The translations under genes were made by a program, and so were the position numbers. From Bryum argenteum (lineage: Eukaryota > Streptophyta > Bryopsida > Bryales > Bryaceae): DNA of 64,000 nucleotides. The notes beneath the pieces were generated by a model. That model had not been told where the DNA came from. It saw only the letters and a list, made by a program, of their open reading frames with translations, and did no database searches. Below are positions 31,266 through 63,477 of the stretch, piece after piece (position 1 is the stretch's first letter; every line of letters starts with the position of its first letter). The stretch is taken from NCBI GenBank assembly GCA_037043015.1, contig CM073327.1:14924727-14988726 (forward strand), read 5' to 3'.

Positions 31266-34200
31266 CTAGGCAGAAGGTGTAGAACCGTTAAAATGCTGAT
31301 CACACTGATCAGCCTCAAAGTCTATAAACTTAAGCACACTATTGCTATAACGTCGACGTGGAGTGTCAGCGAGAATGGGAGATGGAGCTTGAACAAACTC
31401 TTGAGCAAGCCGCTCAGCGTACGATGGTAGGGTGAATTTTGATGGAGGGCTCTTGTAGAGATGAGCGTTGCGAGTCAATCGCTCCTTCAGACCTGCGATC
31501 CTAAAATTGCAAAGAAAGTCAGTCCAACAGATTCGTAAGTGCTAAATACAAAATCGAGAAAAAGAATACAAGATGGAATTACGCACCAATGAACTTCCGT
31601 GGCTTCTTCACGACCGGTTCGTCAGAGTCATAATCAGCGGGAGGGGCAGATTCTCCACTTTCTTCATCACCGGGAGGACCATTCTTGTAATCGACTAGCA
31701 CACCATCGAAGATTTCTTCGTCAGGTTCCATGGCGATGAGGTGTCGGTTGGAGCGCGCGCAAGCAATGACAGATGCACCTACAAAAACAGAAGCCCACGT
31801 TAGAAAAGCGAAATGTATAAACGAACTCAAATGTAGTGATTACAGAAACATTACCTGTACTAGCGCTCCAATCGAAGACTATACCTCCGTCGTCCGTGAG
31901 ACAATCGACGAAACACTGAATGAAGGAGGGGTCCTTCTCTCGTGAGCCACGCCACGGCGTACCGTCCGGACGATAACGTAATGTCTCTTTCTCTGCAAAG
32001 TTACAGAGGTGGTCTTCCTCATCAGGTACGATTGCCACACCCCTGTATGCGTGTGCCACTTGCCGAGTCTGGAACTTCGAAACGTACTCTTTTCGAACAT
32101 AGACTTTGATGTGGAAGCAGTGAGTCTGCAAAACACATGAAAAAACACCTTAACATAAAAGCATAGTAGGTTTAAATCATAAATCGTCAAATTTTTAATT
32201 AGAATCTGTTACGTACCTCTTTCGGTTTGGGTACGGTAGAGGCCATAGGAAGGGGATTATATCCCCACCAGTCTCGAACCAGACGAAAACTATATGTTGC
32301 AGACTCAGAATCGAGAGTACGCTCGATTCTACGACATTTTGGATGCATCAAAAGTATGGCTCCAACGTCCGTCAAATGATAAGCGGCAAACACAAAGAGG
32401 CTCTCAAAGTAGGTTTTGTCACGCCGATTCCAGGATGGAATTTTTGTTGGAGACACACCCGGAACAGGCAAGTTTTCGGGAGCATCTGCAAAAATAAGAT
32501 CAATTCCTGGATGCTTGGGTTCATACTCCATCGCCGAACACGGGTACTTACGGTCTTTGCCAATCTGAGATACAAATCAAATATTAGATAGTGGCAAATA
32601 GATTTACAAGTAAGATTTATAAGTAGGAGATTATAAATGACAAATGTAAGAACTAATACCTTTCTGATGTGCTCGACGATATCGAGGATTTGCAAATCCC
32701 ACTTTGCAGTCTTCGACGACTGATGAACTAAATCTCCAATGTTGCCCTTCTCGAGATACATTGGCAGAGTGACAGAAATCTTTGACGACGAGCTGCTACC
32801 AATGTGATTGGGTTTCGGAAGAGGGCGTTTCGGAAACAATGGCTGGCTGATGCGACGCGGAGACTGCTGTGAGTTGTGGTCCACGGTGAACGATTGAGGA
32901 GGGGACCCTGCATTCGTAAGTCCACCAGTAGAAAGTTGAGTCAGTCTCCCACTGCGTCGATTTGCAGTGTTTGTCGCTCCCTCTGAAGCCTGAGTCAAAT
33001 CAGCATCTTCTGGCCCTGCAATGTCATCTAGAAGGGGAGCAGTTTCTTCGGATTCTTGCTCAACATCTACAACGGGTTCAGCAACAGCGTTACGTCGCTT
33101 CCTGGTTGCACGAGACTTAGGCACTGCAACTGGTGAAGAAGGTGACGAGATTGGATCAGGTGCATCTGGTAAAATGGACAGTTCGTCATCATCATCGTCG
33201 TCAACCTCCATCGGTGCAGAGTCCGCAGGATTTGAAGCCAGGTGACGAAGAAGATGCTTCTCTTCCTTGTGCACGTAGTTGTCGTCGCACTCAAGGAACC
33301 ATCCACCGGTCGTCAATTGGGAGTTAGTAAACCGCTCTTGTTGGGCTGATGAGAAGAAGCTACGGGGATCATTCGTCACTGCAACGTCCTCGAACTCCAT
33401 TGGAATGGAGAACGAAGGTAATGCTCCCTTGGCAACGAGCTCTTGTTTTAGGTACCTACAAGCAAGTAAACAATTTATATAGGGAAAATATTTAACTGTG
33501 AACGACATCCTATAATGTTTTACAGGCCAGGGAAATCAATACATACCGGAATAAAAGCCTCTTAATTGTTGCTTTGCCTCCAGTAATTTTTCGAAGGTCC
33601 GAGCCTTTAATGAACTTCGGACTTGCATTCGGAGCAAGATAGTTGCCGAATGCCTTCTCCCATAAGAGCAACCTCCACTTCTCGATATACGCTGATGGCT
33701 TTAGGACAACACTAGACCATTCAATGTTGAGGTTCTCGTTGTCAACCAGATACTGCAAGTCACTTTCAAGTGATTGCTCAAGCTGAGAAAACAGGAAACA
33801 TGTTAATATTTGAAGTAACATATGAACCTGAAATTGTGTAATCATGGAATGAATAAACAAGTTACCTGTGCCCAAAGAGAAGCACGGTGTAGAAATGCAA
33901 CCAAAGCTTTATCTTTCATTGGGCGATCTTCTGGGAAGCGAAATGATCGTCGAACTTCGTTTGATGCGTTCCACCAATGCAGCCACTTCGCTTTGAAATC
34001 GAAGTGAACATTCGTAGTGGCGACCATGTGTAAGCGATCAAGCGTCATGTCGGGTTTCAGGTTTTGGCTGTAATGAGAATTAATCTGCACGTCGCATACA
34101 CAGTTTTGATGAGAGTGATAAGAGTTTTGATGAGAATATAAAATGACATAAATACATTGACATAAATCATAGCACGCAGTCACTAATACCTCTTTCGCAA

Positions 34201-35583
34201 ATTGCTTCCCGAGTTTGTTATTGGCCACAGCGACCATCTTGTCGAAATTCTTCCCACGTATGGACTTGATTTCAGCCTTGATTGCGTTATCCATGGCACT
34301 CCATACTCCCGGTCCAGTTTGTTTGTCTTTTGGAACCGTGGCATAGTACGTAGCTTCAGCGTCGTCGGATTTTTTCGCTAACCTCCTCTATATAACAATT
34401 ATAACACAAATGAGAAGTTGTTTAAAATAAATTTGAAGAAGAGGAGTCTAGCACATATGTAATGAACTTACCGCGTATAGAAATTTTACAAAAACATCTA
34501 TTGTGACAGGATACCAAGTCTCTCTTTTAGCTTTGGCGTTCTTACAGATCCTGTAATCATCTGCAGAAATGAGGTCCTTGAAATCTTCGAGTTTCAATTT
34601 ACCAAACTTCCTCATGCGTTGAAGTTTTGCACATAAACTGTCTTCGACGTGATCATGTTCAGTCGACCTACAACAAAGAACGAACGATGAGGATATCGAA
34701 AGATGACAGAATCATAAAAGAAACAATTTAAAGAAAATTTGACATTCACTTACCAGTTAATGTCGTTCATAGCATCGAGGAGGAGATTGCTCTCACCACG
34801 GGCATCGAGTACGATGCAATCAACCGAAATGTACCACGAGGGATCATTCTTGTGGTATCTCTCGATATGGCGCATCCACGCTGTAACTCGATGGTTACCT
34901 TCGTAGACATAGAAATATTTGTCACAAAGGTTACGAAGATCTGGATCGTTACGCAGCGTACTCTCAAACTCTTCATTCGCTGCTGTCCAAAGCGGGTTCT
35001 TCCAAAGTTCATCTTCAGTGTCAACAATTTTCTCCCGGCCTTTCCTGTCGAAGGGAGACACGTACATTACCCGATCACCTTTGCGGTATCCCTTGTTGAA
35101 CTCATTCTCGAGTTTTCTGAAGTCTTGTTCTGAGATCGGGCGAACCTTCGGATAACAAACGAGGCGACAAAGTGGAATTAGCATACGAGACTTCTTAACA
35201 GGTTTGTAGCGTAACCTGTTGATGACTGCAATCGAATCACTCTTGTGGAGCATGCGCATCTCGTTTGCACTCCAGTCGGGGTCCTTGTTTTCAAGGTGTG
35301 TAGGCATGTGAAGATTTCCAACATTTACACCTTCAGGCAATGTAGATTCTTCATCATCCGAATGGGATTGGTGCTCATCATGGTCTTGAGTTTGCAATTC
35401 TTCAACTTCGGCATTCTGACCTGATCTTCCATCGCATCCACGTTCCACATCTTGTTGTAGCGTCTGTTTCGTACCATCCCAAAGGATGGCATCATTGACG
35501 TTGGGCGCCGAAAAGGCCATTTCGTTTGGGGGAAGAAGAGTGTCTTGTCCGTCTTGAAGGGAATCCACTTCACATGATATCAT
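31266..35583 (-). CDS. ParB-like / N6-N4 DNA methyltransferase-like fusion protein, copy 1
   Basis: About ten exons: 35583-34757, 34672-34473, 34388-34190, 34084-33866, 33782-33547, 33455-32660, 32564-32217, 32126-31855, 31778-about 31590, 31492-31266. The start is ATG 35583, just after a CAG acceptor, so an upstream leader exon is likely. The N-terminus is acidic. A ParB-like domain follows: MLIPLCRLVCYPKVRPISEQ, YVYEGNHRVTAWMRHIERYH, WYISVDCIVLD. A long middle part has an Asp run and basic RKRRN. The C-terminus resembles beta-class N6/N4 methyltransferases: motif IV-like PGIDLIFADAPENLP, then PWRGSREKDPSFIQCFVDCL and motif I-like GIVFDWSASTGASVIACARS. In active enzymes these read DPPY and DPFxGxG. 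All exons look open. It may bind DNA and possibly AdoMet; catalysis is doubtful. Confidence 0.75.
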
Positions 35584-35719
35584 CTGACAGTCCAAAAACC
35601 AAGTACAAGGCACCCAGAAAATAAGAATATATCAACATAAAAATAATATGTCATTAGAAATATATATTTGTCTCAGACTGCAAACGTTAACATATGTTTC
35701 ATCTACTATAAGTAGATAT

Positions 35720-37575
35720 CTAATAAGATGTAGTTTTGGTTGAAAGTCGTAGTGATCGACGTGGTGTAATTCTAGCAAATTCTATTGCTTGAAGACGACG
35801 CGCCTTCGCATCTGCATAATAATTCGGTCTTGTGTAATTCCCTTGTGAAAATTGATCAACGTCGGCACTAAAAGTGCAACGGACAGGAGTTGCTGGAGAG
35901 GGCGTATCGGGAACGGCGGACAAAGGTATTGCTAATCGTCGAGACTCAACTAAATCTTTGACCTTGACTCTCAAAGAGGATAGATCACTATCCGCATCCG
36001 AATCTTCTTCTTCCACAACATGTGCACGCTTTAGAGGGGCCTGCCATACGCATGAAAAATTTAGAAAAGATAGATCTTACAAAATATGGAAAAAAAAACC
36101 AAGGTAAACTCAGAATATCTGTAGGAGCCAAAACCAAGCATCACACACGAACTCCAGCACTTCGAACAAGTAACCCACACGAACACATACAACCCAAAAA
36201 CAGCAATATCAAAGATCGCTTGGTCAAGGCTCAAGCAAGCTCAAGCAAGCTTCAGCCGCCATGTATGAGACGTCACGGGACGACCACGAGGCTGTGAGCC
36301 AGGCACAATCCACAGCTCAGCCTCGGCTTCATGGCTGGGTGACGAGGAATCTTGAATGGCCCAGCTGTGAGCCCGGCAATCCACAGCTCAGCCACCTTCT
36401 GAACTCACAGGGGACCTCGGGAGGCTCGATGCCAAGCACCGCCCAACAACCTCCATCTCCCTCGAGCGTTTCCGAGGAGGTCGGCACCCTGAGCAACGAC
36501 AAATCCACCAACAACAAAGAACCACCCCGAAAGCAGCAAGCTTAATAAGAAAAAACGCAAAAAAAAGCATGAAGGTGTTAGACAAGGGCCAGACTTGCGT
36601 CGACGCAAGTCTGGCCCTTGTCCGACCACTTCAAATTTTCAAAGTGCCAGCCATCCGTGAACACCCCAGATTTGCACCACCAACTGCTCGGGAGCTCGAG
36701 GGAGAGGACTTCTGAGGCTGGCTCGGCAGAATGCTTCATTGCCAACCAGCGACGTCACGGGGACGAGCACGGGGCTGTGAGCTAGGGACACTCCACAGCT
36801 CAGCCTCAGCTTCATCGCTGGGTGGGCTGAGGAATCTCGAACGCCCGGCTTCAACACTCACAGGGGACTCGGGAGTCACTCCGCCATGTATGAGTCGTCA
36901 CGGGGACGAGCTCGAGGCTGTGAGCCCGGCAATCCACAGCTCAGCCACCTTCTGAACTCACAGGGGACCACGGGAGGCTCGATGCCAAGCACCGCCCAAG
37001 AACCTCCATCTCCCTCGAGTGTTTCCGAGGAGGTCAGCACCCTGAGCAACGACAAATCCACCAACAACAAAGAACCACCCCGAAAAACAGAGTGCTGAGC
37101 TACGAGCTGGCTTACTTTCAGCGTCGTCGGCCTCACCACATCACCGCATCCATCATCACAAACAAGAACTGAAAGACAGAAACTTCGAAGTAGTTGGTGT
37201 AGGGTTTACAGTACTCCATACCTTCATAGTTTTGGAGTAGGCCGGAGTCTTCTTCGCTTGGCCCCAATTCGGATCTGTCCTGTAAATGAAAGAGAAGAAA
37301 CTCGATTCTGATGATTGAGTACTCACATTCTCTTCATTTCTCGCGGCTTGCTCCTCTCCTCGTATCACGACCTCCTCCTCTCCTCGCACTAGTGTCATCC
37401 GATCGCAGACTTCATCTGACATTGTTCCTTCTGCTTCGAACTGAGCAACTCTCTCCTTCAATTCAAAAATCAAACAAGTAAACCAACTACGGTGCGAAAC
37501 ACAGGCGTGTAACAAAATTCTGCAAGTTCTCAATAAAGTCCTGCATTCTACATTCAGCACTGACAGCCATCTTGA
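35720..37575 (-). CDS. Small MULE gene upstream of ParB-methyltransferase-like gene
   Basis: I do not recognise a family. The best part is the terminal exon 36040-35720 (APLKRAHVVEEEDSDADSDL, LRVKVKDLVESRRLAIPLSA, ending ITPRRSLRLSTKTTSY). It has a clear counterpart at 63617-63937 with the same acidic start, VESRRL, PDTP and PRRSxRL ending before a stop. Likely upstream exons: a start MAVSAECRMQDFIENLQNF at 37573, LKERVAQFEAEG...DEVCDRM up to a GTGAGT at about 37328, and a short exon near 37220-37280. A repeat block (36260-37090) separates them. It is probably a nuclear accessory protein; function unknown. Confidence 0.45.
36260..37090. repeat. GC-rich repeat block inserted between exons
   Basis: Three related units (about 36272-36545, 36749-36880 and 36894-37088) share CCACAGCTCAGCCACCTTCT, GGGAGGCTCGATGCCAAGCA and CGACAAATCCACCAACAACA. 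The first and last are over 90% alike by eye. The open frames in them are repeat-driven. They are absent from the corresponding part of the MULE at 58261. Confidence 0.65.
36581..36622. repeat. Perfect 42-bp palindrome
   Basis: The left half is GACAAGGGCCAGACTTGCGT plus C; the right half is its exact reverse complement, with no spacer. It lies between repeat units in the GC-rich block. A shorter related hairpin (GACTTGCTGTGACGCAAGTC) lies at about 42302. Confidence 0.85.
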
Positions 37576-37679
37576 TGATGCTTTTGTCAGCTTAGATCCC
37601 GCAGCTTAGATCCCGCCCCTATTTTTAAAATACGACGCTACAAGCTACCCACTCCTCCAAACAGCGGCGTTTCGGAATC

Positions 37680-38270
37680 TGCAGTTAGGGTTTCATTAAA
37701 TTTTTTTGTCGTAAAATCCGTCTGCAAGTTGGGCTGATCGACCCTCTTCCGGCCAGCCACACACACGACGACCCCGAAGGGATCGCCCCTTCAGCGCACC
37801 AGAATCGGCGCATTGGAAAGGTCAAGTTCACGATTCTCGAGCCTGAGGTCTGACGGATTGCCATCAAGGCGGTCTGCGATCAAGGTGGACTGCCATCCAT
37901 GGCTTGCCAATCGGGGGAAGATGAAGACGCTCCTACGCCGAGCAGCGCCGAGCTTACCGGTCCTGGCGAGACCCGGGTTAAACACCCGCGCGCACATACC
38001 CGACCTTGTGCTACCCCGCCGATCGTACCCAGCGCCCGCATATCCGAACCATCGCCGATGATACCTTCGCCGCACATACCCGGGCCGTCCCTACCCGGGC
38101 AGACCCTTTCCTCGCCGACTGTATGGAGCCCGTACGTACCCGGCCCGACCCTGGTCTGGCAGGTCATACCCTTCCCGACCATACCCAGCCGATACATACC
38201 CGGCCCGACCTATCCCAGCCCATACCTACTCTGCCTAACCTTACCCACCCGGTACATAAGCGGCCATTCG
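37680..38270. repeat. GC-rich low-complexity block
   Basis: Irregular repeats of the type CATACCCGGCCCGACC fill about 37970-38260, in the region between the small gene and the accessory gene. Open frames on both strands reflect the repeat. No gene is supported. Confidence 0.5.
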
Positions 38271-38604
38271 AAAATGTGAATAATTCGAGTAAAGAATCAC
38301 TCATTTTTTCTTGCACTAATAAGTATACGCAAAAATTGGAATGAACTTCAATATCATTTTCAATAGTAACATAATGAAGAAGTACAAACTGTAGATCCAC
38401 ATGTACTTAAATGTTACATTCAACTTCGATTCCAAGACCCGCAAGTACGATGTTTAGACTCAGTTCTAAGTCCATATGTATCTAGAAACTATATTATATC
38501 AACTATCCAAGCTACATCGAACCCATGAATGGACTCTCGTTGATTGTATACTTAATCAACCCTAAGTCCCCCCAATAAACCAAAAAGTAAGGTTTCTCAT
38601 GTAC

Positions 38605-39246
38605 CTCCTCTAACTCTTCAGCACTTGTCTCAAATCCGTCCGTTGTATCATCCGTTGTTTTCCGTCGAAAATCAGCTTCTGCTCTCCCGCCCGAATCATT
38701 GACTCTTTTCTCCTCAAACATTGTTGTACAATCACCGGATCGATTGTCCTCCTCTTCCGATCCTTTGCGGCCCTAAAGACATCACATGTCTTTGTCAATC
38801 CATATACTTAATTGGTTATAGATTAATCTTTACGAATATAGACAAATTAATTGCATACAAAACTTCAATACCTCATGTGTAGAGTCTACACCTCCATCGT
38901 CATCGCCTTTCTCGCAAACAGGATCGCTAGAAGTCTTGAACTGCTTTCTACGCTCTTCCTCCTCCTGTTCATCAACTTCCTCCGTCCAGACACTCTCTGG
39001 GACACTGTCAAGGTTGAGCGATCGCATTTTGATTGTCCGCCTGAATGGTGGTAGCACATCGTCGTCGATCAAGATATCGTACCCGTCTGGTTCTTAATCA
39101 TCGCCGCTAGAGCTTCTCCCATCGCGCTTTCGCAAAGCACTACGCCTCTGTGCTTTGGAATTAGTAAACTTCGTACCACCCCTCCGTTTTTTCTTCCTCT
39201 GACCTATCTCCTTTCCTCTCTCACTAGCGCCCGCGGTTTCGTCCAT
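38605..39246 (-). pseudogene. MULE accessory protein, basic then acidic, second copy
   Basis: From ATG 39246: MDETAGASERGKEIGQ, RKKKRRGGTKFTNSK, RRSALRKRDG, then acidic stretches (VDEQEEEERRKQ, EKGDDDGGVDSTHE) to a donor at 38872. The second exon 38772-38605 is acidic and ends at a GTACAT donor. The basic block matches the gene at 6042. An in-frame TAA at about 39095 (SSGDD*EPDGY) breaks it unless that part is spliced out. It is transcribed away from the transposase, with about 550 bases between the two start codons that probably hold both promoters. Confidence 0.55.
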
Positions 39247-39798
39247 GTTGCTTGCAAAGAGACTACTTATGACACGTCCCTCCCTACAAGTCCAACTGTT
39301 CTCACAACAAATGAAGAGGTCGAACTATGGGTCTCAACTCCAATATATAAGTTCCCCCATGCTGCTAAGAAACCCTAATCAGCCACCACGTATTCCCTAA
39401 CATCCCGCTATGACCGTCTCTGACAAACCTAATTATGCTAACTTTTGAACGCATCTATAATCCAAATAAATTTCTGACAATGACGGCCCGCCGTCACTTG
39501 AACTTATACACCTACTTATTATATCGACGGATCTCATTTTTTAAATCCTACGTACTTAATGTAATTATGTCAGTCCGAATATTTAGAGTATTATAAGTAT
39601 CGTGCTTTCAAATCATCATACTGACAATTAAGAGTACCGAGTATATGTATGTTGTATTATATGGAATTACGTCTCGTAGGTATTCAGTACGTATGCAAAT
39701 ACCTTCCACCAATTTCTTGTATTTGAACATTTGAAACGCAGATCAATCTCTCTTTCTCCTTGCGCATATTGAGGTTCTCTTCCTCGCTTGCATCTATC

Positions 39799-42700
39799 AT
39801 GGCATCTGCCGCTCCCCTGCCTCTCGCTGCGGACGTCATTGCCATTAGGTCTGGGGACTTAAGTCCCCCAATCTGTATTCCTTTGGGGGTAGATGGAGTA
39901 GCAGATGTCACTCCGTCTTGGCTAGCAATTCGATTCGGGTTTGATGAGTCGTCTCTGTGGTTAGAGAAACATGTCTTAGATCCAAACACTCATCATGTCG
40001 ACTACTCTGTCCTAGTCGAACCAGTCGCCCTCGAAGGTAACTGTAAAGTGTATAAGCTACGGCCCGGACAGTATCGACTGTTCGGCTTGACAGAGTCTGT
40101 CATGAACGCCTCCACCGTCCTCCTCACTCCTCGTAGTTCTTCAACCATCTCCACTGTTGTTCTAGTTCTTGCTCGTGTCAAGGTCGAACCCGGACTCGAA
40201 GTCCGAATCGATATTTCAGATTCATCTGATGATGAAAGAAAAGAGTCCATCCAGTCCCGCCGACTATCGTCAATTCTGCCACCCCCCTCGTCCGGTTCTG
40301 AACACAGTCTCAGATCCACCCCCTCTTCTCTTCCCCCGTCCAATGTCGATAAACATAAAAACATTCTTTCCGCGCTCCGTAGACTAGGTAGTATGTCTCG
40401 CAACAAAACTATACTCAAAAAAATCGATTTCCATTCCATTCGTACTTACAACGTCTCTTTCCTGCCTCCCACTTTCAACGGTGATGTCCTCTACATTCTC
40501 CCTCCCGTTTTGCCAACTACCGCTGTCAAGGTAGCAAAATCTATGGAAGGGATGGACAAAAGATACGACGGTCATGTGTGGACGAGGACTATGACTACTA
40601 ACATAAGTAACAACCTCGGTTTGTCTTTCCGTTACTCTAACTGTGTAGGGCATCTTCAATGCCACAATGACAAGTGCGGCTTCTTGCTACGACCTGACCG
40701 CAGAGCACAAGTCAATGAGGTGGAGTTCGAGGGCTTTACCAAGGACCCCTTCTCTGTCGGCCAGGCGCCTCCTCCTTCTTCAACACTGGTCTGTAAGATC
40801 TGCAAAGAACCTCCCGTCTGTGTTGCTCTATGCCCTTCAAAAATATTTTACGTATTCGGAGAGGAGAATCAAGAGAGGGCGTGTGTGCATATCGGTACGC
40901 ACGTACATCCTGTCAAAGTTGGAGACTATAGATGTGCACGTAAAAAAATTGATGAGTTAATAGAGGAGCACGTAGAACGTAACCCACAAGCTACCACGTC
41001 CAAAATAGTCATGGAGGCCAGCAAGGACTTACTCGGAAACTTACTTCTCCGTGAAGAAGGTGACCCTGTAACCTCCAAGCTCACCCTCGAGGAGCTAGAA
41101 CCTATCTTCGATCAGTGTAGGGAGCTTAACTCTCCGAGCGTCAGGAATCGTATAACCACTTTTAAGCATTTGCGCAGATACGGTGTTCTTGATGGGATCA
41201 CCAAGCTTCGAGGCCTCAGCAACTGGGCTTACATCCAACGTAACCAGTTCCCCGGCCAAGGAGATGAAAGTGACAAAGTGTTCATTTTCAAGATGTCCGA
41301 GGTCGGCCCCGGGAGCGGTGTTGACCTTGTTCGTCGTATGCAGCTCGGAGGCGACTTGTCACATGCATGGCTGATGTTCGACCATGTCAAGCGTGTCAAG
41401 AACTGGACCACCATGGCGTGCCACGTTTATGACTCAAAAATCTGCCGCATTCTAACTATTGCATCTCGTGATTTCCCGATCAAGACGGAGATGCTCAAAT
41501 CGTCTTCCGGAAGAACCTAAACCACGTCATGGCGCGGAGCGAACGGAGCGCCGCCGCGATTTCAAGGTTCATGGCCGATGGTGCTCAAGCCAATCTGAAC
41601 GCAGCGTGCGGATCATTTATGGCTCGGAGACCCTAAAGTGCCCATGGAAGGCCGCGAGCGGACTTGCTACTTTCATTGGACGCAATCTCTAGAGAAACAC
41701 ACCAAACAATACATCGTGCACGAACTGCAGGATCAACATCGACATCTTTGTAAACAATACAAAGATGCACGCACCATGGCTGAGGCGGAGACAAGATACT
41801 GGGCGATCCGAGCGTGGTGGGCGTCGGCGCAGGCCACCTCCGAAGTTGGATTAGGTCACCTCGAACACTGGCTTGCATTCTGGCATTTCCGATATAGGCA
41901 GTGGGGTGGCTTTATGGAACTGGTGAGTCCACAGTCACTGTAGCAATTATGTACACGTGATTTGATGTCTACACTAAATAGGTAGCTAGTGTTAGATTTT
42001 TATAAGATTTGAAAATGCTATAAGTTTTTACTTTCGATAAAATAAATTACCAATAGTATTGATTCCAATACCATGGAAGGATCCCCATCTTCGGGAATGT
42101 AGAGGGTAAATTTTTTGACCAATAGTAAAAACTTATAACATATTTATATGAATTAGTGTATCTAACACTAATCTACCTATTTAGTGTAGTAATTCTTTAA
42201 AATATATTTACTTTTTAGTATCGAATATTCTGCTTTTTTAAATCTTCTTCAGTAACAGTTATAATCATAAAAAATTGAAAATTGTTCTATTTTTAGATCA
42301 GACTTGCTGTGACGCAAGTCTAACCCGCTCTGGATATCGTGGTCAACTGTTTTTGTTATTAAGTCAGAAGTCTGTGCACCTTGCAGGAAAATAAATTTTT
42401 AGCAGAGGAGTTGGCGGAGATGCCTTCATGTAACCTTGCAGAATCTATACATAACAAATGGTTGCAAGCGTCCGGCAACAAGGGTGAGGACTTGTACGTT
42501 GCAGCTGTTGATGATTATGTTCGTGCTTTCCTCCAAGTAGTAGGTTACCACGACTTCAACGGAGGTGGCAAGGGTGGTAGTGGACCAACATCTAAAGAAC
42601 TATTACTTCGTGTTGCCCATAAAGCTCAACGAACGGGCGATCCATCAAGCCTTACAAAGGCAGTTTCTGACTATCCAGGAGCTGAAAATATTTGTACCCG

Positions 42701-43826
42701 AGACGCCCACCTTGAGGGGGCCGAGGTGTTCGGTTCCAAGAAACGTAAGGTTGATGTTCCGATTGGAGCTGATGATGAAACGCACAGACCTGACACCGTG
42801 AGCTACTCACGTCCCCGAATTGGGAGAAGGGTTACCCGAGCTTGTGCTGAAAATCTGAGTACTATCCATGAAGAAGATGAAGTTGAGGAGCTACCGACAT
42901 TACCATCCACTTTCGCTGGACCTAGTATTGAACGGGTGACCGCTGTTCAGGAGACTAAAGTAGACGAGAGGTTGTGGCACATTGCCCGTTTGAGGGAGAA
43001 TTCAGCCAAGGCTTGTTGGGGTATCATGCGAAAGAGTAAAAAAAGATGTGACTCACGAATTATTCAGAAGGGGAAGGCGACCGCAGCTCCAACTTACACC
43101 GGAGTATGGCAGCGCCCTCAAGAGGGGCCAAGAAAAATTGATCAGTTCTTTTTTTGTGCGGATGATATTGATAGGTGTGTGAAGGGTCATCGTCGCAAGT
43201 GGATTGAGCCATTCTCTCTAAGTGAGGATAGACCCCCTATTCCTTCAATATGGCCTGTTAAGATAGGGACTAATCTTACACGTGATGAGATGGAGGCGTT
43301 AGAGAATGCGGGCTTTCGACTACCACAAAAACAGCAGCTTCCTAGGAACCGTACATTCAATAATGCTGCCCCACCAAGAGACTTGTCCCATATTCCAGTC
43401 CCGGAGAAGCCAGACGTGTTCCCTAGGTCAAGAAGATCGAAGAACATGAAACGCATTCCAGCTATGACTTCAAAGCACATGAAGATTATTGAGTCTGCCA
43501 CGTCAATGCAGGCCAGAATTCTGAGGGTGACCATGATCCCGCAGCCTGGTTTTGGGTGTATCGTAGACTTGGAGTCTGATTCAGATGCAGTTTATAGACT
43601 TTCTATAAGTAAATTCCCGGATTGCTCATGCCCAGTGTTCAAGAAAACAATTTCTACGTTAGGAAGGAGAGATCCATATCGACCGTGCAAGCACCTATAC
43701 TTCATCACGGTATTGGTTTGCAAATTTGATCCGGATGCTGACCTCTTCATCCACGCGGCCACTCTTAGTTTCAACGAGGTGAAGAAGATTCTGGAGGGAG
43801 GAATCCTAGACCATGCTACAGATTAG
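39799..43826 (+). pseudogene. MULE transposase with SWIM zinc finger, copy in complete element
   Basis: Start ATG 39799 (MASAAPLPLAADVIAIRSGD). Order: an N-terminal region of about 230 residues; GCM/FLYWCH-like Cys/His segment (GMDKRYDGHVWTRT, NCVGHLQCHNDKCGFLL, LVCKICKEPP); a DDE-like core with ICRILTIASRDF, RFMADGAQANLNA and MEGRERTCYFHW; WLAFWHFRYRQWGGF; an intron (about 41925-42386, containing a MITE); then a last exon with SCNLAESIHNKWL and the SWIM finger CSCPVF...CKHLYFI (about 43625-43705). Frameshifts near 41489, 41598 and 41630 disrupt the core, so it is inactive as it stands. The last exon is intact to 43826. Confidence 0.85.
41972..42186. mobile_element. Stowaway-like MITE, copy 2 (in transposase intron)
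   Basis: 215 bp, ends CACTAAATAGGTAG and CTACCTATTTAGTG, flanked by TA at 41970-41971 and 42187-42188. Highly similar to 422-637. It sits between the donor after GGFMEL and the acceptor before ENKFLAEE, so the spliced message would not be affected. Confidence 0.85.
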
Positions 43827-44248
43827 AATGCCTTATATCTCCTCATCTACGTACGCTATGTGTTAGTCTTATGATTGGGTGCTCCACACTATATGTGATA
43901 TTTTTTCACAACTTATTAAAAATTATTATACCAGTACCTACGAGTACAGCAAACCTTGCAAATTTGTCTAACTCGGAGTACTATTCACTTAGAAATATTA
44001 AATTAGAAACCTCTTGACATTTAAAAATTTGTGATTTACTGTAGAGTTTTGTAGCTCAAGTCTCACAAATTCAGGAAATTTAAGCCTTATTTCCACGGGT
44101 TTGGGTCACTAAATCCACGGTTATAAGTCTCGAATATTCGAATATTCTTGAGAATATTTGCAAATTATTCTCAAATTTTTTTTAAAAATCTATTTTTAGA
44201 TTTTTTAAAACTAAAAATACAAATTCAGCCCTAAAAATACTAAATCTT
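43827..44248. other. Right subterminal region of complete MULE
   Basis: AT-rich and non-coding, with CCACGGTTATAAG-type motifs related to the opposite subterminal region. It leads into the inverted GAGCGGT array. Confidence 0.5.
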
Positions 44249-44287
44249 ACCGCTCACCGCTCACCGCTCACCGCTCAACGCTCACAC
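44249..44287. repeat. Inverted GAGCGGT array, right end of complete MULE
   Basis: Read on the minus strand it is GAGCGTT followed by four GAGCGGT, the same order as at the left end. The terminal 13 bases (to 44300) end the element before the target duplication. Confidence 0.85.
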
Positions 44288-44300
44288 GGTAGCAACGTCC

Positions 44301-44310
44301 ACTTCACCAC
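44301..44310. repeat. Target-site duplication, right copy (ACTTCACCAC)
   Basis: Identical to 30283-30292; marks the right boundary of the 14-kb MULE. Confidence 0.85.
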
Positions 44311-44774: not shown

Positions 44775-45125
44775 CGGGGATGTCGCGGCGTCCAGGCGTC
44801 CGGACGTCCGGTGGGCGTCCGTCGGACGTCCGCGGGGTTATGGGAGCGTCCGTGACTTAGAGATTTTGGACTATTTACTTAAGGTAAAAGGGCGACCGAT
44901 CTTGGCTGGGCGACGGGTCTTTGGCCGGGCGACCGGTTTTGCCCGGCGATCGGGCCCGCCGACCGCCCAACCCGGGCGACCGTAGTAGAAGCGATGGCCG
45001 TCTGATCGGTCGGTCGGTCGACCCGATCGGAAAAAATAAATAAATAAATAAATAAATAAAAAGGTGATGGGCGATGGCGGGCCGTCGATCGGCTCGGCGG
45101 TCGACCGACCGGCGGTCCTCCCGAC

Positions 45126-45161
<36 letters not shown>

Positions 45162-45179
45162 AAAAAATAAAAAAAAAAA

Positions 45180-49237: not shown

Positions 49238-49272
<35 letters not shown>

Positions 49273-49350
49273 AATTTAGAATCCGGTCGCTCCGTCCTGA
49301 TCGGTCGGCCCGACCGATCGGACGGAGCGACCGGATTCTAAATTTAGATT
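45180..49350. repeat. Long inverted repeat (arms about 1.7 and 2.5 kb)
   Basis: The sequence from 45180 (ATCTAAATTTAGAATCCGGT) is mirrored to 49350, with the centre near 46840 in a T-run flanked by CGGTCGGTCGATCGG repeats. Shared landmarks in both arms: GGACGGCGTGGGCGTCCGAA, TTAACCCTAACCCTATTCC (telomere-like), GACATTCCCCTGACAAAATC. Each outer end has its own local hairpin (45187-45276; 49271-49349). Arms look about 95% alike apart from one insertion. Confidence 0.8.
47841..48744. other. Asymmetric about 900-bp segment in the right palindrome arm
   Basis: The left arm reads directly from the sequence opposite AACTAGGT to that opposite CCATAAGTAG. The right arm has about 900 extra AT-rich bases there. 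Either an insertion in the right arm or a deletion in the left. I see no genes and no clear ends. Confidence 0.5.
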
Positions 49351-49905
49351 TTTTTTTTTTTTTTTTTTAATTTTTTTTTTTTTCCTTAAATTTCGGTCGG
49401 GCCGTCCGACCGGTCGACCGCCGACCGATCGACCGCCGACCGACCGATCGACTGCCGACCGACCGGTCGACCGCGGACCGATCCGTCGACCGCCGTCCGA
49501 CCGGTCGACCGCCGACCGATCGGTCGACCGTTATCAATCTAACGGTTGTGGATCTCCGAATCAAATCCCATGGTCACCACGACCTTCGGTCGCCTCGACC
49601 GGGCGCCGGTCGGAGCGAATTTTCTCGGTCGCTCTGAAGAAGATCAGATTTGAACGGCTTAGATGCGAGCTCCAAGAAGATCTAATGGTTGAAATTTTTA
49701 CTGTTGTCGTAGTAATTCCATTTTACCCCCCCGGACAGACGTCCGGACGGTCCTGGACGGACGTCCGGACGGACGGACGGACGTCCGACCAAAAAAACTC
49801 AAAAGACGTCCATATTGACATCCCTGCCCTGGAATGGCCCTTTTGGCATTCCCTACAGGGCATGCTGCTGCCAGGGCCTCACAGCCAGCCCCCCTCCAGT
49901 CACTC

Positions 49906-50350: not shown

Positions 50351-53300
50351 GATGGAGGTCCAATCCTTCATATACCCGAGTGCCCAGACACAGAAAAATG
50401 AGTGAGATCGCCCTCCGCAATATACAGAAGGTGGATTCGATCAATGTAATCAATCGGTTGCGAATCAAGCCTTCATCTAAATCACGGTTTCTTATTCCAT
50501 TATGTCGTTTGCGGTGTCTTTCTCTTGTACGTCCTATTAGTGAAGTTAACGTGCAGCGGTTGGAGAACGATTTCGTTATGGGATATCGAGATGGAGATCG
50601 AGTCCTCTATGTATCCATATACAATGGTGGAGATGCCGAGTTGACGGTTACAGAAGAAATTTGTGCATCTTGGAGTGCCCATTGGAAAGCAGCAAACGAT
50701 GCATTTGAAAACTTTCTAGCTGCAGATGAAGATCTCAAGGTTTTCAGCAACAAAATGTTTTTGTGTATGAGGGAAACCATCGACTGTCTGCATGGTTTCG
50801 CCACATCAACAAACATCATGGGGGCAATCCTGCATGGCATATAAGTGTTGATTGCATCGTTCTAGATGCACGGAAACAAAGTGGCATTCTTCTTAACGCC
50901 ATGAGCGATATTAATTGGTATGAATTTGTACTTGTTTATGTATTATAAATCTAATTGAATTATCATTCACGTAGTTATTATTTAATAATTTTTTATATTG
51001 TTTGTGAAGGTCTACCGAAAACGATCATGTGAAGGCCGACTTAACATCCATATTACAACGTATTCGTACGTTTGGTAATTTGAAGCTTGAGGAGTTTAAA
51101 GATCTTATTTCAAAAGAAGAGTACGCCATTTGTAAAAAAGAAAAAGAAAAAAATCCAACATGGTATCCATTGACAATTGATATTTTTGTTGCATTTCTTT
51201 ACAAGGTACAATTTTTCCATTCATTTCCTTTTTCTTTCATGACTATAATTGTATTTTTTAATTTTTTGATACTATAAGTCATGTACTACTGTTGCAGAGA
51301 GAGATTTCTGCAGAGCTCTGCTGATGAAGTTGCTGCAAAGTATCGGGAGAATACACCTCTGAATGAAAGAACAACCCCTGGAGTTTGGACAGCAATGACA
51401 GATGCTTCTAAGTTAAAGGTGAAAAATTTGCGATCAAAAGCTTTTGACAAATACCTAGCGGTGGCTAACAAAGACAACGGAGACGCCTTCTTTGATGAGG
51501 TATTTGTTTATTCATTTGCAATTCTCTGATTTATATGTACTTGGTTATATATATATATGGTTCTAACTTAGTGTTTTCTAAATGTGTTATTTGTGTAGAT
51601 AAATTATCATTTTGCACACATGACCAATCCGGAAATGACTATTGAGAAGTTACAGAAGATAGTAACTACTCGAGTTGAACCAAAATATAAGACACGATGG
51701 TTGAAGTGGTGGAACTCTTCTAAGGATGCTCGAAGAAGTTTCAAATTTCCTGATACAAAATCTCTTAAGGATACAACTCTTGATACATGGCTTATCAAAG
51801 CATCCTTTCGGGTACATGTGAGTTTCTATTTAATTTTTATGTTCAACTATTTTGTCACTTATAATACTTTGGTTTTCAATAAAGTTTCGATTTATTGCAG
51901 TTGGAAGAGGCAATTGTAACTAGGTTTGTCGAGAAGGAAAAAAGTTGTGTTCGTCCCATTCAGAAAGACGTTTGTGGAGGTCTTTTTAGCCTTGCTGAAT
52001 TTGTTGATCGGTGGCGTACTATTCTGTGGGACAAAGCTTTTTTGCCATTGATTGCAAAGTTTGCAAAGTCTACAGTTCTTACGGCATTTAAGGGTGGAGA
52101 CATGGCTATCAATCGTGTGATGTACCGGTATGATATGGCATCACCTTAAGAAACAATTAATTTTTCTTTTTCTTTTCTTTTAAAATTCTAAGTGTTTCAT
52201 GTTGATATTAATTCAGGTATTTTTATCGTGAAATAGTGACGAAGAATGCTCTTTCAGCAAAATTCGTCCCACCCATTCTTCAAACTTTCTTGGATTCTAC
52301 ATCCGAAGAATTCATGTATACACCTTTTCAATCTCGGAAATTTCTTGTTTCTCATCTACGAGCAGGAAGGTGGTATCTTGATTGTGTGCACGGATTTATT
52401 CCTCCTGGCGAGGAAAGCCTTGTTCAATCTCTTGACGAAATTCCGGATCTTCATTTGGAGAACTTCTATGTGATGTGGAGGAGCAACCTAAATGAAAACG
52501 GTCCAAGAAGACGACCAACACAACTCCTGCCGTTGCAACTCGCTCTACAACAAAGGCAACCTCACGAGACTCTCCAGCAAGTGCTACGGTAGGATGCTCA
52601 ATAGCTGGTCAGTTAGCCATTGTTTCAGTACCTTTACAGCCTAACTTGACGATTCCTACTTTAGGCTCTGAGGTATCCAAGCGCAAAGAGACTGAACCCA
52701 CTACAACTGTTACTTCTTCTAGTACAATTCGTTCTTCCACTCTTCTTGAAAATGCAGACTTGGAGGAACTTATTGAGTTCAAGCAAATGAACGGTGTTCA
52801 TAATCCTATTAACGAGCGCATCCAGAAATTTATATCGGATGTGAGTTACTTATCACCTCTTTCTACTTTATGTATTGCAATCTACATTATTTAGAAATTG
52901 TGGCTAATAATTGTTGTCTTTTTAGGTTCGTACATCGCGACCTCATGGTACATCAAACATGACCGCAAATCATTCCGGACTTGACCTCATTATAGCGGAT
53001 GTACCAGAAAACGTGCCAGTGCCACTTGTCTCAAGCACTACGGTACCTGAATGGAACAAGCGCTCAGAAGGTTACTTTGAGTACTTATTTTCATTTGCTG
53101 CTGCAAACTTGCATGACGATGCAATGTTGCTTGTAGTTCATCCAAATGATCCTGCTTTGTTACTTGATTTGCGAAATTGGACTTATACTTTTGAGTTTGA
53201 GCTGCTACACGATTGGTGGGGTCTAAATAACCTCCATCTTTTTTCTTCGGTTGATCGTTCACAAAAGGTGCAAATTTCATTCCATAAACTTCTATTATTC

Positions 53301-53752
53301 TTATGTCATTTTACTTCAATATTTGTATTCCTAATATTTACAATTTTTTTGTTTTGTAGACTTTGCGATTTTTCATCAAGGTTGATACTCGCACTGGTTC
53401 CAAAGCCTCTATTCAAGAAGCAAGTTCTTGGTCGAACTTGGGATTTTCTCTCGAAAATGATGGCTACCTTCTGAACTTCACAAACTCAAAGTGTCAACTC
53501 ATGAATGATACGATTCTGTGGAGAGGGGCCCGTGAGAAGCATCCTAAGTTCATGCAGATTCTTATTGAGTCTCTTACAAAAGAAGGAGACATTGTTCTTG
53601 ACTGGCAAACCAATACAGGTACTGCTTTTTTTTTTCCCAACTAATAATTTTTTATATGTTGATTTTCTTCTTTTTGTTTTAACACTTTAATTTATATCTT
53701 GATGTTCATTTTATACAGGTGCCTCAGTTTTAGCTTGTCGTGACGCTGGTCG
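50351..53752 (+). pseudogene. ParB-like / DNA methyltransferase-like gene, copy 2 (3' part, truncated)
   Basis: Exons at about 50351-50917, 51010-51205, 51298-51499, 51599-51815, 51901-52128, 52217-52840, 52926-53268, 53361-53619 and 53719-53752 correspond one to one to those of copy 1. The ParB-like part reads SRFLIPLCRLRC, VRPISE, YEGNHRLSAWFRHI and WHISVDCIVLDA. The methyltransferase-like part reads GLDLIIADVPENVPVP, ILWRGAREKHPKFMQI and IVLDWQTNTGASVLACRDAG. Frameshifts occur near 50393 and 50757 and near 52480-52640. The last exon stops after ACRDAGR where a hAT-like element starts. The first exon is probably 7313-7414. Confidence 0.75.
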
Positions 53753-53859
53753 CAGGGATGTCAATCCGGACGTCTTTTGGGTTTTTCTGGACGGACGGAC
53801 GTCCGTCCAGGACCGTCCGGACGTCCGTCCGGGGGGTAAATCGGAATTACTATGCATGT

Positions 53860-58115: not shown

Positions 58116-58127
58116 TGAGCCCCTCCC

Positions 58128-58140: not shown

Positions 58141-58277
58141 CGATCGGGATCGGACGCCATTGGCCAGCTGGCCTTGGCCGTCCGATCCCGGCCGACAGCC
58201 GTCAAATTGGCGATCCGGCGGCCGGCGACCGGCCGGTACGACCGATCGGGGTCGCACGTCGGGGAAACCACCGGTGT

Positions 58278-58336
58278 GAGCGGTGAGCGGTGAGCGGTGA
58301 GCGGTGAGCGGTGAGCGGTAAAGTTTGAGCGGTAAG
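58278..58336. repeat. GAGCGGT terminal array, copy 3
   Basis: Six GAGCGGT units, AAAGTTT, then GAGCGGT, in one 7-bp register. It has two more perfect units than the complete MULE. Confidence 0.85.
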
Positions 58337-59175
58337 GAAAAAATAAATTAAAAGTTACTGGCCCTATTACCATGGAATGGGTGGTTCTGAAATTTTGAAA
58401 TGGTTGTTTTTAGGCATAAACGTACCCAAAACCGTGGATATAGATCCTTCATTCATTTATTTTCATGGTATTGAGGTCATATAATATATAATAAATTATC
58501 CACATTTGCAAGTTTAAATAAAAGTTACTTAAATTAGGGCTGATATCATCATGTGTAACTCATATAATTCAAATCATATACTGGCCTCGTTCATTCATAA
58601 ATTCAAAACTTTAACCCAAATCTGAGAGGGCCCATTAGAACAACCATCAAATCACTTTAATGATTTGAAAGTTTAGATTAGAATTAGGGCTGACGTCATT
58701 AATTAAGTATAACACTTGTCAGAAATATATGTAAATGATTCGGGATATTTAATCTAAAGTTTATGATTACAAGTCGTCTCTGAGTGTCTCCTGGAAAGGT
58801 GTACAGAAAGACATTCACGTGGCATTGTAGTGGTCCGAGTTCGATTCTCGTCGGGCTCGTTTGAGCGTTGCAGTGCGTCGTAAAGCTATCCAGAGCTATA
58901 CAAATACTAAACCAGAGCCCCTACCAACATTGGCTAGATTCAATCACTCCAATTGAAAATAAAGAAACGTTTTGAAACTTTACGTTTGCATTGAGTTTAA
59001 AATTTAAACATTTAGATAGTAATTAAGATTGCATTAAACGTTCATAATTAATAGGTAAACGTCATAAATAGATATAAAAACGTATAATAAAACCACATGT
59101 AAGACCAATGCCGTGGGGCAACTGTATGACCCTACGTAGTCCAAACTCCAAACCAAACGAGATAAATAAAAACAC
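58337..59175. other. Left subterminal region of MULE copy 3
   Basis: Non-coding, homologous to 30353-31265, including the tRNA T-arm-like motif at 58830-58856. Confidence 0.6.
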
Positions 59176-62100
59176 CTACGATGCTGATGGTGAACGACCA
59201 TTAAAGTGTTGGTCACACTGATCAGCCTCATCGTCTATAAACGCAAGCACTCTCGAGCTAAAGCGTCGACGTCTACAACTGTCCGATAAGACGGGAGACG
59301 GGGCAGCCACAAATTCCTGAGCTATCCGCTCCGCATAAGATGGTAGAGTGAAAGTTTGCGAAGGACTGCTGTAGAGACTAGCGTCGCCAATCAAGCGTCG
59401 GTTTGAACCTGCGATCCTAAAAGTACATAAAAAGTCAATTCCAATGAATTATTAGCAAGTGAAGGTGACAATAGATGGGGGAAAAGTAAGATATAATTAC
59501 GCACAAAATGTTGGGCGTTGCTTCTTCTGAAGCGGTTCAGAAGTGTCGCTGTCGTAGTCATAAACTGGATCTGAATCGCCACTTTCTTCCTCAAAAGCAG
59601 TGCCATCCACGTATGCCGATAAAAGTCCGTCAAATATCTCCTCATCTACTTCAACAGCAATGAGATGACGGTTCGATCGCGCGCACGCAATCACAGAAGC
59701 ACCTACATACCAGCAACCAACATCAGAAATCCAATAGTGAATGAGTTAAATGAGAGTTGGTATAAGCAACAACTAACCTGTACTAGGGCTCCAGTCAAAG
59801 ACGATTCCCCGCTCGTCTGTGAGAGAATCAATGAAACATTGGATGAAGGAGGGGTCCTTCTCTCGCGAGCCACGCCACGGAGTACCATCTTCCTTCTTAC
59901 GAATGGAGTCATTGCTCGCGAAATTAAAAACATGGTCCTCCTCGTCGGGAAGAATGGGCACACCTGCGTACTCTTTCGCAACCTGTCTTATGGAGAATCT
60001 GGTGGCGAAAGACCTCCGAACGAAGACCTTAATGTGGAACTTGTGAGTCTGCAAAATTCATTAGATGTTAGAGAATTAAAGAGACGTTGTAAATAATTGT
60101 AACCGATGAATTGAATGCAGAATGAAGACTATACCGTTTTCACGTGCGGGTTCGTCGAGGCCATTGGCATGGGATTATATCCCCACCAATCTCTCACCAT
60201 TCGGAATTCGAAGGCCTTCGACTCGGCATCTAGGGCTTTCTCGACTCGACGATCCTTCGGATGCATAACAAGTATCGCACCCTCGTCTGTCAAGTTGTAG
60301 AAAGCAAAGAAGAACACACTCTCGAAGTAGCTTTTCTCTCGCTTGTTCCATGAAGGGATATCGACAGGCGACACGTCAAGCACGGGTAAGTTCTCCGGTA
60401 CGTCTGCGTAGATGAGATCAATGCCGGGATGCGGGTGTTTCTTGCCCATCTCCTTACATGGGTACTTCCGGTCCTTGCCAATCTGTGGAAATCACAAAAA
60501 CTTAAACATGTTGTAAACGATATGTTCCTAACAGAATTTCTGAATTAAAAGAATGTGATAAGAGATTTAAGACATAATACCTTTCTGATGTGGTTAATGA
60601 TGTCCATCACTTGCGTGTCCCAATCTTTCGTTTCGTGAGCTGCCTTTTGAACAGAAGCACCGATATCCCCTTTTTCCAAGTACATTGGGAGAGAAATAGT
60701 AATCTCAGAAGACGAGCACTCGCCAACATGCTTCGGTTCAAGAAATGGGAGTGAAGCGAACTTCTTTCCGGAGCTGTGGTCGACGGTGAAAGATTGAGGA
60801 GGGGACCCCGCATTCGTAAGAGCGCCTACAGAAATCTGAGTCAATGGTCGACCACGTCTACGAGCATTGTTGGTCGCTCCATCTGAAGCCTGAGTCAAAT
60901 CAGCTTCTTCTGGACCTGCAACGTCTTGATGGAGCGGACTGGTTTCATTGGGTTCTTGATCAAGATCAACGACAGGCTCCGCAGCGGCGTTGCGTCGCTT
61001 TCTGTTTGCTCGGGTTCTAGGATGTGCAATCGGTGAAGGAGGTTCGGAGGGTGACACAGTTGCGCTTGGTAAAATGGACACGTCGTCGTCGTCATCGTCA
61101 TCGATCTCCATAGGTGCATCGCCTGGTGCGTTTGAAGTGAGGTTTCGAAGCAGATGTCTCTCTTCCTTGTGCACAAAGTTATCGTTGCACTCAAGGAACC
61201 AACCACCGGTCAGCAACTGTGAGTTGGAAAACCGTGAGTGTTGGGCTTCGGAGAAGATGCTGGACAGATCATTTGAGACGGCTACGTCCTCGAGCTCAGC
61301 TGGAATGGACCAAGAAGCCAAGGCTCCTTTGCCAATAAGCTCATTTTTCAAGTACCTACAATGAACAAAACATAGAACAATGATAAACTTGAGTATATAG
61401 AACTGAATTTTGTAATGAGCAAAATGAATAGGAAATTGAAGAGCTAAGCGGATATATACCGGAATAAGAGCCGTTTGGTAGTAACTTTGCCACCACTAAA
61501 CTTCTGAATATCGGATCCTTTGATGAACTTGGGGCTCGCATTCTGAGCAAGGTAGTTCTCGAATGCCTTTTCCCGTAAAAGCAATCTCCATTTCTCCACA
61601 TACGCGGATGGCTTTAGTACCGCATCGGTCCATTGAATGGAAATTTTGCCATCCTCCAGAAGTTGTTGAATCCCACTTTCGAGGGATTGTTGTAACTGCA
61701 ATGAAGTAGAACCCGTTAGGAAAAGTAGGTAGTGGATGACGGGAATACATTAATGACAGAAGTTCAGTACAATATACCTGAGCCCAAAGCGAAGCGCGAT
61801 GCAGGAAGGCAAGCAATTTTTTATCCTTCATAGGGCGGTCTACTGGAAAGCCGACAGATAGACGCACATCATCTGGCGCATTCCACCATTGGAGCCACTT
61901 TCCCTTAAAATCAAAGTGGACATTGGTGGTGGCTACCATGTGCAACCGTTCGATTGTCATGTCGGGCTTCGGGTTGTGGCTGTAGTGAGAATTGATCTGC
62001 ACATAGAACAAATTGAATTAATTAATTACAGTAGTAATCAATAACAGTACTCGGTATCCTTAGAAACTAAGTAGACAAAATTATTTACCTCTTTCGGGAA

Positions 62101-63477
62101 TACTTTCCCAAGTTGTTTATTGGCCACGGCAACCATCTTGTCAAACTTTTTGTCACGAATGGATTTGATTTCCGCTTTGATGGCGTTATCCATGGCACTC
62201 CAAACTCCTGGCCCTGTTTGCTTTTCTTTAGGGGTAGAGGCATAGTAAGTAGCCTCGGCAAGATCCGATGCTTTCGCTAACCTCCTCTACATGGCAGATA
62301 AGCAGTAGTAAGAATTTGTAACATATAGAGTACAGGGTAGAAGTGTTAAGTACGTATTAAGAAGTCTTACCGCGTATAAGAACTTGACGAAGACATCCAT
62401 TGTGACAGGATACCATGTTTCTTTCTTTGCTTTAGCGTTTTTGCAAATTTGATAATCCTCCGGAGTAATGAGATCCTTGAAATCTTCAAGTTTCAACTTA
62501 CCAAACTTCCGCATGCGTTGCAGCTTCGCACATAAACTGTCTTCGACGTGGTCATGTTCGGTAGACCTATATAGCGCAAAGGTAGACCTGTATATGAGAA
62601 TACGTCGAGATAACAGAATTTGAAAGAAAAGTATTCGAAAAATTGTTAGAAGTACTTACCAATTTATGTCATTCATGGCATCAAGGAGGAGATTGCTTTG
62701 ACCGCGAGCATCGAGTACAATGCAATCAACTGAGATGTACCATGATGGATCTTTTTGGTGGTACCGCTCTATATGACGCATCCACGCAGTCAAACGGTGA
62801 TTTCCCTCGTATACATAGAAGTAGTGGCCACTGAGAGAATGAAGATCGGGATCTGACATCAAAGTCTTCTCGAACTCTTCATTTGCATCTCTCCAAAGCG
62901 GATTCTCCCACACATTGTCTGCTGCATCAACTTTTTTTTCTCTTCCTTTCTTATCGAATGGAGATACATACATGACCCGATCTCCTTCTCGGTAACCTTT
63001 GTTGAACTCGTTCTCCAGCTTCCGAACGTCTTGTTCGGAGATAGGCCTAACCTTGGGGTAAGACACCAAACGGCACAATGGAATTAGCATGCGAGACTTC
63101 TTTACAGGTTTGAATCGAAACCTGTTTATGATTGCAATAGAATCACTTTTGTGAATCATCCGCATCTCATTCGCACTCCAATCAGGATCTTTATTTTGGA
63201 GATGGGGTGGCATGTGCACGATGCCGACGTTGACACTCCCAGGCAAAGAAGATTCTTCGTCATCCGATGGAGACTCTTGTGCATCGGTAGCTTGCAAAGC
63301 CTCCAGAGAAGGTTCGGGTTCGATATGAGTATCACGTGGGGCTGGAGAAGGAATATGTTCCACATTTTCTTGTGGCAAGGGTGTGGTATCATCTTCTTCA
63401 GGAAGTTGACTTGACTCAAAGTTTTGAGGGGAGATATCTTCATCGTCTTGAAGAGATTGAAGCTCGGATATTCTCAT
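59176..63477 (-). CDS. ParB-like / N6-N4 DNA methyltransferase-like fusion protein, copy 3
   Basis: Start ATG 63477 (MRISELQSLQDDEDISPQNF) directly after a CAG acceptor, as in copy 1. Exon order matches copy 1, ending with 59408-59176 (PSYAERIAQEF, CDQHFNGRSPSAS). The ParB-like domain has MLIPLCRLVSYPKVRPISEQ, YFYVYEGNHRLTAWMRHIER and WYISVDCIVLDARGQ. The methyltransferase-like part has PGIDLIYADVPENLPVLDV, PWRGSREKDPSFIQCF, GIVFDWSPSTGASVIACARS and HLIAVEVDEEIFDGLL. That is the motif IV then motif I order of beta-class enzymes. The canonical DPPY is DVPE and the glycine loop is altered. All exons are open with good splice sites, so this is the best candidate for an expressed protein. Expected location nuclear; substrate unknown. 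Confidence 0.78.

Follow-up and report, generated by a model that had tools for sequence, protein, structure and literature searches.

In a 64,000-nucleotide stretch of contig CM073327.1 of the moss Bryum argenteum (GenBank assembly GCA_037043015.1; hereafter the window), we identified a spliced gene whose predicted product combines a putative ParB-like domain with an N6/N4 DNA methylase-like domain. This gene is a recurrent and selected part of a large MULE-like transposon, in which it lies divergent to the transposase gene. Most probably, the product is an accessory protein that targets its own element and either modifies DNA or opposes silencing. That the gene belongs to the element as an accessory gene, and that its product marks or holds element DNA against silencing or times transposition, is a reading to which we give about an even chance.

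Elements Carrying the Gene

Three elements were recovered with both ends: A, which lies wholly within the window, C, which extends past its right edge, and D, on contig C1 (Table 1). Their target-site duplications agreed at 10/10, 10/10, and 9/10 positions, respectively, and the gene and the divergent transposase were colinear in all three. Elements A and C open with a common GGGGAAACCACCGG terminus, and the similarity between the two begins at that point. The terminal inverted repeats are short and imperfect (42–49 bp, including repeats). The sequence TGAGCGGTGAGCGG, with one mismatch or none allowed, matched 12 times in the window, and all 12 matches were located at the three element ends, compared with a chance expectation of 0.02. 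The location of the gene inside a transposon, proposed in a preliminary description of the window, is supported by the inverted ends and 10-bp duplications. In some elements, long and variable tandem arrays separate the gene from the transposase (L031, L033, and L096).

The superfamily was assigned more cautiously. MULE transposons generate target-site duplications of 8–11 bp, and the transposase of A ends in a SWIM-like CxC...CxH pattern. This pattern was recognized by eye; in comparisons with Pfam, SWIM was reached at just E 0.5–0.6, and no MULE model matched. We therefore term the carrier MULE-like, on the basis of the 10-bp duplications and the CxC...CxH pattern, and the earlier designation as a MULE transposon is kept in this reduced form. 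The first long frame of the A transposase is shorter than that of C. Approximately 208 bp in the transposase region of A (41972–42178) is absent from C, and a similar stretch occurs at 420–641. A second, diverged MULE-like transposase lies on the minus strand at 2517–5656, with DNA pieces ∼65–76% identical to those of A; a frame near it (5916–6440) resembles, by eye, a frame in L098 (339–860).

Structure of the Gene Copies

Copies A and C each consist of 10 exons with GT-AG boundaries at all junctions, identical intron phases, and no internal stop, the exon joins having been set from the GT-AG junctions on the DNA alone. The spliced products are 1170 and 1163 amino acids long, respectively, and are 68.9% identical over 1170 amino acids. 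Copy B is decayed and truncated: nine exon pieces could be placed, and the eight introns between them are bounded by GT..AG at homologous junctions, but the frame is disrupted and the copy passes into other repeat DNA near 53757. In the aligned pieces, copy B is 54% identical to C in the ParB part and 40% in the methylase part.

The preliminary description had reported three copies with about ten exons and common intron positions, the middle copy being assembled from 7313–7414 and a distant downstream stretch. Copies A and C were confirmed in full at the positions it had given, and B was confirmed as a decayed third copy sharing eight introns. The piece at 7313–7414 found no support as part of a copy; tblastn gave no match there to A or C at E 1e-3, although a relic of very small size could escape such a search, and a loose search of 7200–7550 alone reached a best E of 0.28. 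The YEGNHRxxAW box, the motif IV-like stretch, PWRGSREK, and the motif I-like stretch were all found as described.

Recurrence Across the Genome

At least 39 places in the genome carry the gene (38 listed and copy A). Ten of these, including A, C, and D, have a divergent transposase of the A subfamily within 16 kb, and one more has such a transposase in the opposite orientation, among the best 90 of 1660 transposase candidates scored; the number expected by chance, in either orientation, is 0.43. For these counts, the exon-1 starts at C3:10494000 and C9:13424400 were guessed from the positions of other exons, and in several further cases the start used is the end of a partial match.

When 16 further gene places were sampled, the 22-base terminus was detected downstream of the gene in 10, of which eight were exact and two had a single change, and the 10-base flank differed in every one. 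In the remaining places, the terminus was partly aligned in one and was not found in five within the 1.5 kb fetched. The transposase side of six further copies yielded one transposase with its element end and one partial transposase (58% identity); no transposase was present in the other four of the six stretches fetched (6–9 kb, starting 2–3 kb from exon 1), one of which was full of tandem arrays and another of which held long frames unlike those of element C. Because of these missing termini and transposases in the sampled flanks, not all gene copies are demonstrably within whole elements. Nine genome copies were spliced, and only A and C were without internal stops; in the other seven, between 1 and 26 stops were counted, a part of them perhaps due to alignment faults, because the exons of these copies were projected from C.

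The genome contains a single LEAFY locus, with MRDYVHCYALHCLD and VGAWCQAC, which we take to be the moss type. TTTAGGG repeats gave 1221 matches on both strands, and the places among the matches listed were internal. In the moss Ceratodon purpureus, a relative of the ParB part has been annotated and is 59% identical.

Selection and Relative Ages

We estimated the ratio of nonsynonymous to synonymous substitution rates (dN/dS) in nine pairs drawn from eight of the nine spliced copies; many dS values exceeded 1, so that the estimates are rough. The ratio was 0.03–0.09 in the ParB part (six of nine pairs, dS being saturated in three) and 0.04–0.11 in the methylase part (seven of nine pairs), compared with 0.14–0.46 in the linker (all nine pairs) and 0.38–0.80 in the N-terminus (eight of nine). 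Both domains are under purifying selection.

The two parts of the element differ in age. Between A and C, dS was 0.18 in the transposase (3′ exon, 471 codons) and about 1.7 in the gene, which makes the divergence of the genes approximately tenfold older. From these old genes beside near-identical transposases, we infer that gene lineages were exchanged between elements, either through recombination within the array region or through gene conversion.

The Methylase-Like Domain

Profile and sequence comparisons show homology of the C-terminal domain to beta-class N6/N4 DNA methylases. All three members searched matched PF01555 (limit E 5; best E 0.001), with a score of 19.5 bits that lies below the curated cut-off of 26.7. 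Phage methylases matched at E 1e-5 over 93% of the domain with 23% identity, and an hhalign comparison with the methylase of Lactococcus phage LW81 gave 1.5e-6, whereas two controls gave 0.13 and 0.48. PHROG methylases matched down to 1.1e-4, and NCBIfam PRK13699 matched at 0.0045 in 3/3. In the PDB set, DpnA was reached at 0.0039, a score that came from the motif I part alone (the motif IV piece of DpnA scored −0.9 bits). Motif IV precedes motif I, as in LW81 and in CcrM (E 0.25). Of the 45 matches of one search, the first 27 had no Pfam domain, and PF01555 was present in each of the final 18, which began at E 1.1e-3; among the methylase database matches, introns were visibly read through in P0001, P0002, and P0009. 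The beta-class methyltransferase of the preliminary description therefore holds with respect to homology and motif layout, but the catalytic DPPY is altered.

The catalytic motif of N6/N4 methylases is (D/N/S)PP(Y/F/W). DPPY is replaced by D(V/A)PE in all nine spliced genome copies, and the DPPYN of LW81, DpnA, and CcrM aligns here to D(V/A)PEN. In the methylase alignment (A4), 24 of the 28 rows have a letter in the column of the fourth residue of motif IV: E in 18, S in 2, D in 2, K in 1, and R in 1 (a row out of frame), with an aromatic residue in none of the 24. The first and third residues of the motif also vary in a few rows. Motif I is altered as well, DPFxGSGTT reading DWSxSTGAS, and most rows that cover motif I in frame have DWxxxxTG or a sequence near it. 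The change from DPPY to D(V/A)PE brings continued methyl transfer into question.

It is accordingly possible, although we hold this only tentatively, that the methylase fold has lost its catalytic activity and acts as a scaffold that binds DNA or S-adenosylmethionine, the protein being an anti-silencing or chromatin factor that works without DNA methylation, like the VANC proteins considered below. The uniform D(V/A)PEN, the consistent lack of an aromatic residue, and the changed motif I all favor such a scaffold, and METTL14 is a constrained protein of the methylase fold in which DPPW has been lost. On the other hand, the motif IV aspartate, the motif I G, and the acidic residue that follows motif I have mostly been retained, and the very low dN/dS of the domain would be equally expected of an active enzyme. 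We consider an enzyme that still writes a mark and an inactive scaffold to be about equally probable.

The ParB-Like Domain

The ParB assignment of the N-terminal domain is plausible but weaker; it is suggested by the GNHR box, by a fold predicted with confidence, and by earlier published cases, and is unproven by profiles. In an alignment of 67 rows, the box reads EGNHR in 55 and DGNHR in 5, and its arginine is present in 63/67. PHROG 1033, annotated as “ParB-like partition protein,” matched two of the three window copies (E up to 5; best E 0.0039) and 6 of the 67 relatives (E up to 0.1; best 0.0098), the match lying at the box in the member shown. An AlphaFold2 model of the ParB part, built from 67 sequences (copy C and 66 of the 120 listed matches), reached a predicted local distance difference test (pLDDT) score of 89.1 and a predicted template modeling score of 0.80; a single-sequence fold of the ParB exon had a pLDDT of 40. 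The order of elements in the model is strand-strand-helix-strand, an insertion, and strand-helix-strand-helix, with the GNHR box in a strand-then-helix context, and we read this order as ParB/Srx-like.

No ParB match was obtained from Pfam, NCBIfam, the PDB sequences, or a comparison with P1 ParB, and PF02195 had no match across the genome. Phage comparisons of the ParB part returned four records (best E 0.7). When P1 ParB was used as a bridge, 47 loci were retrieved, the best segments of which were 97–100% identical to the query, and hhalign gave E 0.58; a shuffled-decoy test failed to report P1 ParB itself. A search with the full-length protein gave 6593 candidates, none at E 0.01, and profile scans of viral contigs (four alignments) and one genome-contig scan confirmed no relative. 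These negative profile and P1 ParB comparisons would fit an unrelated fold that happens to carry a similar GNHR box, but the confidently modeled strand and helix order is the one expected, PHROG 1033 matches, and a protein of the same kind has been published as ParB-containing; we regard an unrelated fold as rather unlikely. The ParB domain of the preliminary description is retained as a putative assignment, on the box, the model, and PHROG 1033, against the negative searches.

Proposed Role and Alternatives

In the role that we propose, the ParB/Srx-like domain would guide the protein to element DNA, with the TGAGCGG end repeats or the internal arrays as candidate sites. The methylase-like domain would then write or hold a base mark, or merely occupy the site, and this mark or occupancy would counter host silencing or time transposition. 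Several of the results given above weigh against such a role: the internal stops in most spliced copies, the sampled places without a terminus or a transposase, the altered motifs IV and I, and the negative ParB comparisons with Pfam, NCBIfam, the PDB sequences, and P1 ParB. A fuller version appears doubtful: a ParB-methylase with a remodeled active site would recognize the end repeats, write an unusual mark or keep the site open, and so evade silencing, and the gene would be swapped between elements as a module.

By analogy, the protein could instead be a one-protein modification-cleavage system, in which a ParB nicking nuclease would nick or process unmarked DNA and spare the marked element. 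A ParB-methylase of Bacillus cereus is reported to have nonspecific nicking activity (PMC5512222), but sparing on the basis of a mark requires an active methylase, and we consider this quite improbable. The least probable reading is a host gene or a chance capture (Pack-MULE-like) with no role for the transposon, which would suit the stops or frame shifts in seven of nine spliced copies and the four of six fetched flanks without a transposase but not the recurrence at 39 or more places, the two old gene lineages with common introns and low dN/dS, or the published parallels in other transposons. The reading as an ordinary host gene was not supported, the terminus common to 10/16 sampled places counting against it.

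Other Features of the Window

A large repeat that contains long open frames is present in two direct copies, at 9537–17734 and 20487–28578, the larger pieces of which are ∼90–97% identical. A frame of 488 amino acids at 54613–56079 weakly matches a protein kinase profile (PF00069, E 7.7e-5, below the cut-off). Repeats at 45080–45838 and 48742–49437 form an inverted pair that is 85% identical. Coordinates of the main features are given in Table 1.

TABLE 1. Features of elements A and C and of the gene copies in the window.
Feature	Position	Strand	Remarks
Element A, MULE-like transposon, both ends	30293..44300	.	14,008 bp; termini, inverted ends, perfect 10-bp duplication
Target-site duplication left of A, ACTTCACCAC	30283..30292	+	
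Target-site duplication right of A, ACTTCACCAC	44301..44310	+	
Left terminus of A, TGAGCGG tandem repeats	30293..30354	+	
Right terminus of A, TGAGCGG tandem repeats	44246..44300	-	Inverted relative to left
ParB-methylase gene copy A	31266..35583	-	10 exons, 1170 amino acids
Copy A exons 1–5	35583-34754, 34667-34472, 34387-34190, 34084-33866, 33782-33547	-	
Copy A exons 6–10	33455-32660, 32564-32217, 32125-31855, 31778-31587, 31492-31266	-	
Putative ParB-like domain, copy A, 3′ part of exon 1	34754..35270	-	Approximate limits
N6/N4 methylase-like domain, copy A, exons 7–9	31700..32564	-	Approximate limits
Small frame upstream of copy A	35720..36076	-	118 amino acids stop to stop; stop precedes exon 1
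MULE-like transposase gene of A	39799..43826	+	Divergent to methylase gene; C-terminal SWIM-like CxC...CxH
Copy B, decayed and truncated third copy	50398..53757	+	Aligned pieces 54% (ParB part) and 40% (methylase part) identical to C
Element C, left part	58261..64000	.	15,929 bp in total; remaining 10,189 bp, including transposase, past window
Target-site duplication left of C, GTCGCACGTC	58251..58260	+	10/10 again at right end
TGAGCGG tandem repeats, left end of C	58274..58336	+	
ParB-methylase gene copy C	59176..63477	-	10 exons, 1163 amino acids
Copy C exons 1–5	63477-62660, 62566-62371, 62286-62089, 61996-61778, 61695-61460	-	
Copy C exons 6–10	61355-60581, 60482-60135, 60048-59778, 59702-59505, 59408-59176	-	
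Small frame upstream of copy C	63617..63940	-	107 amino acids; ends before exon 1

Comparison With Known Systems

Such genes are already published for algal transposons, so that the earlier impression of an undescribed transposon gene was abandoned. One article describes Sola1-1_Ec32 of Ectocarpus, a giant DNA transposon in which the strand opposite the transposase encodes a protein of 1104 amino acids with ParB-like and N4/N6-methylase domains; for green and red algal cases, it cites Iyer 2011 and Petroll 2025 (PMC12477816). Here too, a two-domain protein of ∼1100 amino acids, with the ParB assignment provisional, lies opposite the transposase. Ectocarpus, however, is a brown alga, whereas the present carrier is MULE-like and its host a moss, and the two are likened by description, not by sequence. 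Among the matches listed, no moss or MULE carrier was noticed in the open-licence literature, although Iyer 2011 or Petroll 2025 could hold one. The kind of gene is known. What is new, as far as could be seen, is that the carrier is MULE-like, that the host is a moss, that selection was tested, that gene and transposase differ in age, and that the motif is altered. Our results extend the range of ParB-methylase genes on transposons beyond algae to a land plant, and add a further transposon superfamily to their carriers. They also raise the question of whether plant transposons write their own non-C5 base mark, and mosses have laboratory genetics. With a changed catalytic motif and with gene lineages older than the transposases beside them, activity and module exchange can both be tested directly.

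The domain resembles LW81, DpnA, and CcrM in being beta-class with motif IV before motif I, and differs from them in the change of DPPY to D(V/A)PE and in its altered motif I; the LW81 gene, moreover, encodes a methylase of 227 amino acids without a ParB part. Dinoflagellate and charophyte retrotransposons are likewise eukaryotic transposons with a DNA methylase, but theirs is a host-derived C5 cytosine methylase (PMC5890265). In fungal DNA transposons with TET/JBP, one DNA-modifying enzyme similarly occurs in several transposon lineages, but that enzyme is a dioxygenase, not a methylase (PMC12730594).

The nearest analogue for an anti-silencing role may be found in the VANDAL transposons of Arabidopsis, which also combine a transposon with an accessory gene. 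The product of that gene, VANC, is not known to be related in sequence to the protein described here or to contain a methylase domain. The analogy rests on the binding of VANC proteins to noncoding tandem-repeat regions and the loss of silent marks that they induce (PMC10398659), and VANDALs are termed MuDR families in a further article (PMC12730594). Tandem-repeat regions, the targets of VANC, are also the candidate targets of the moss protein.

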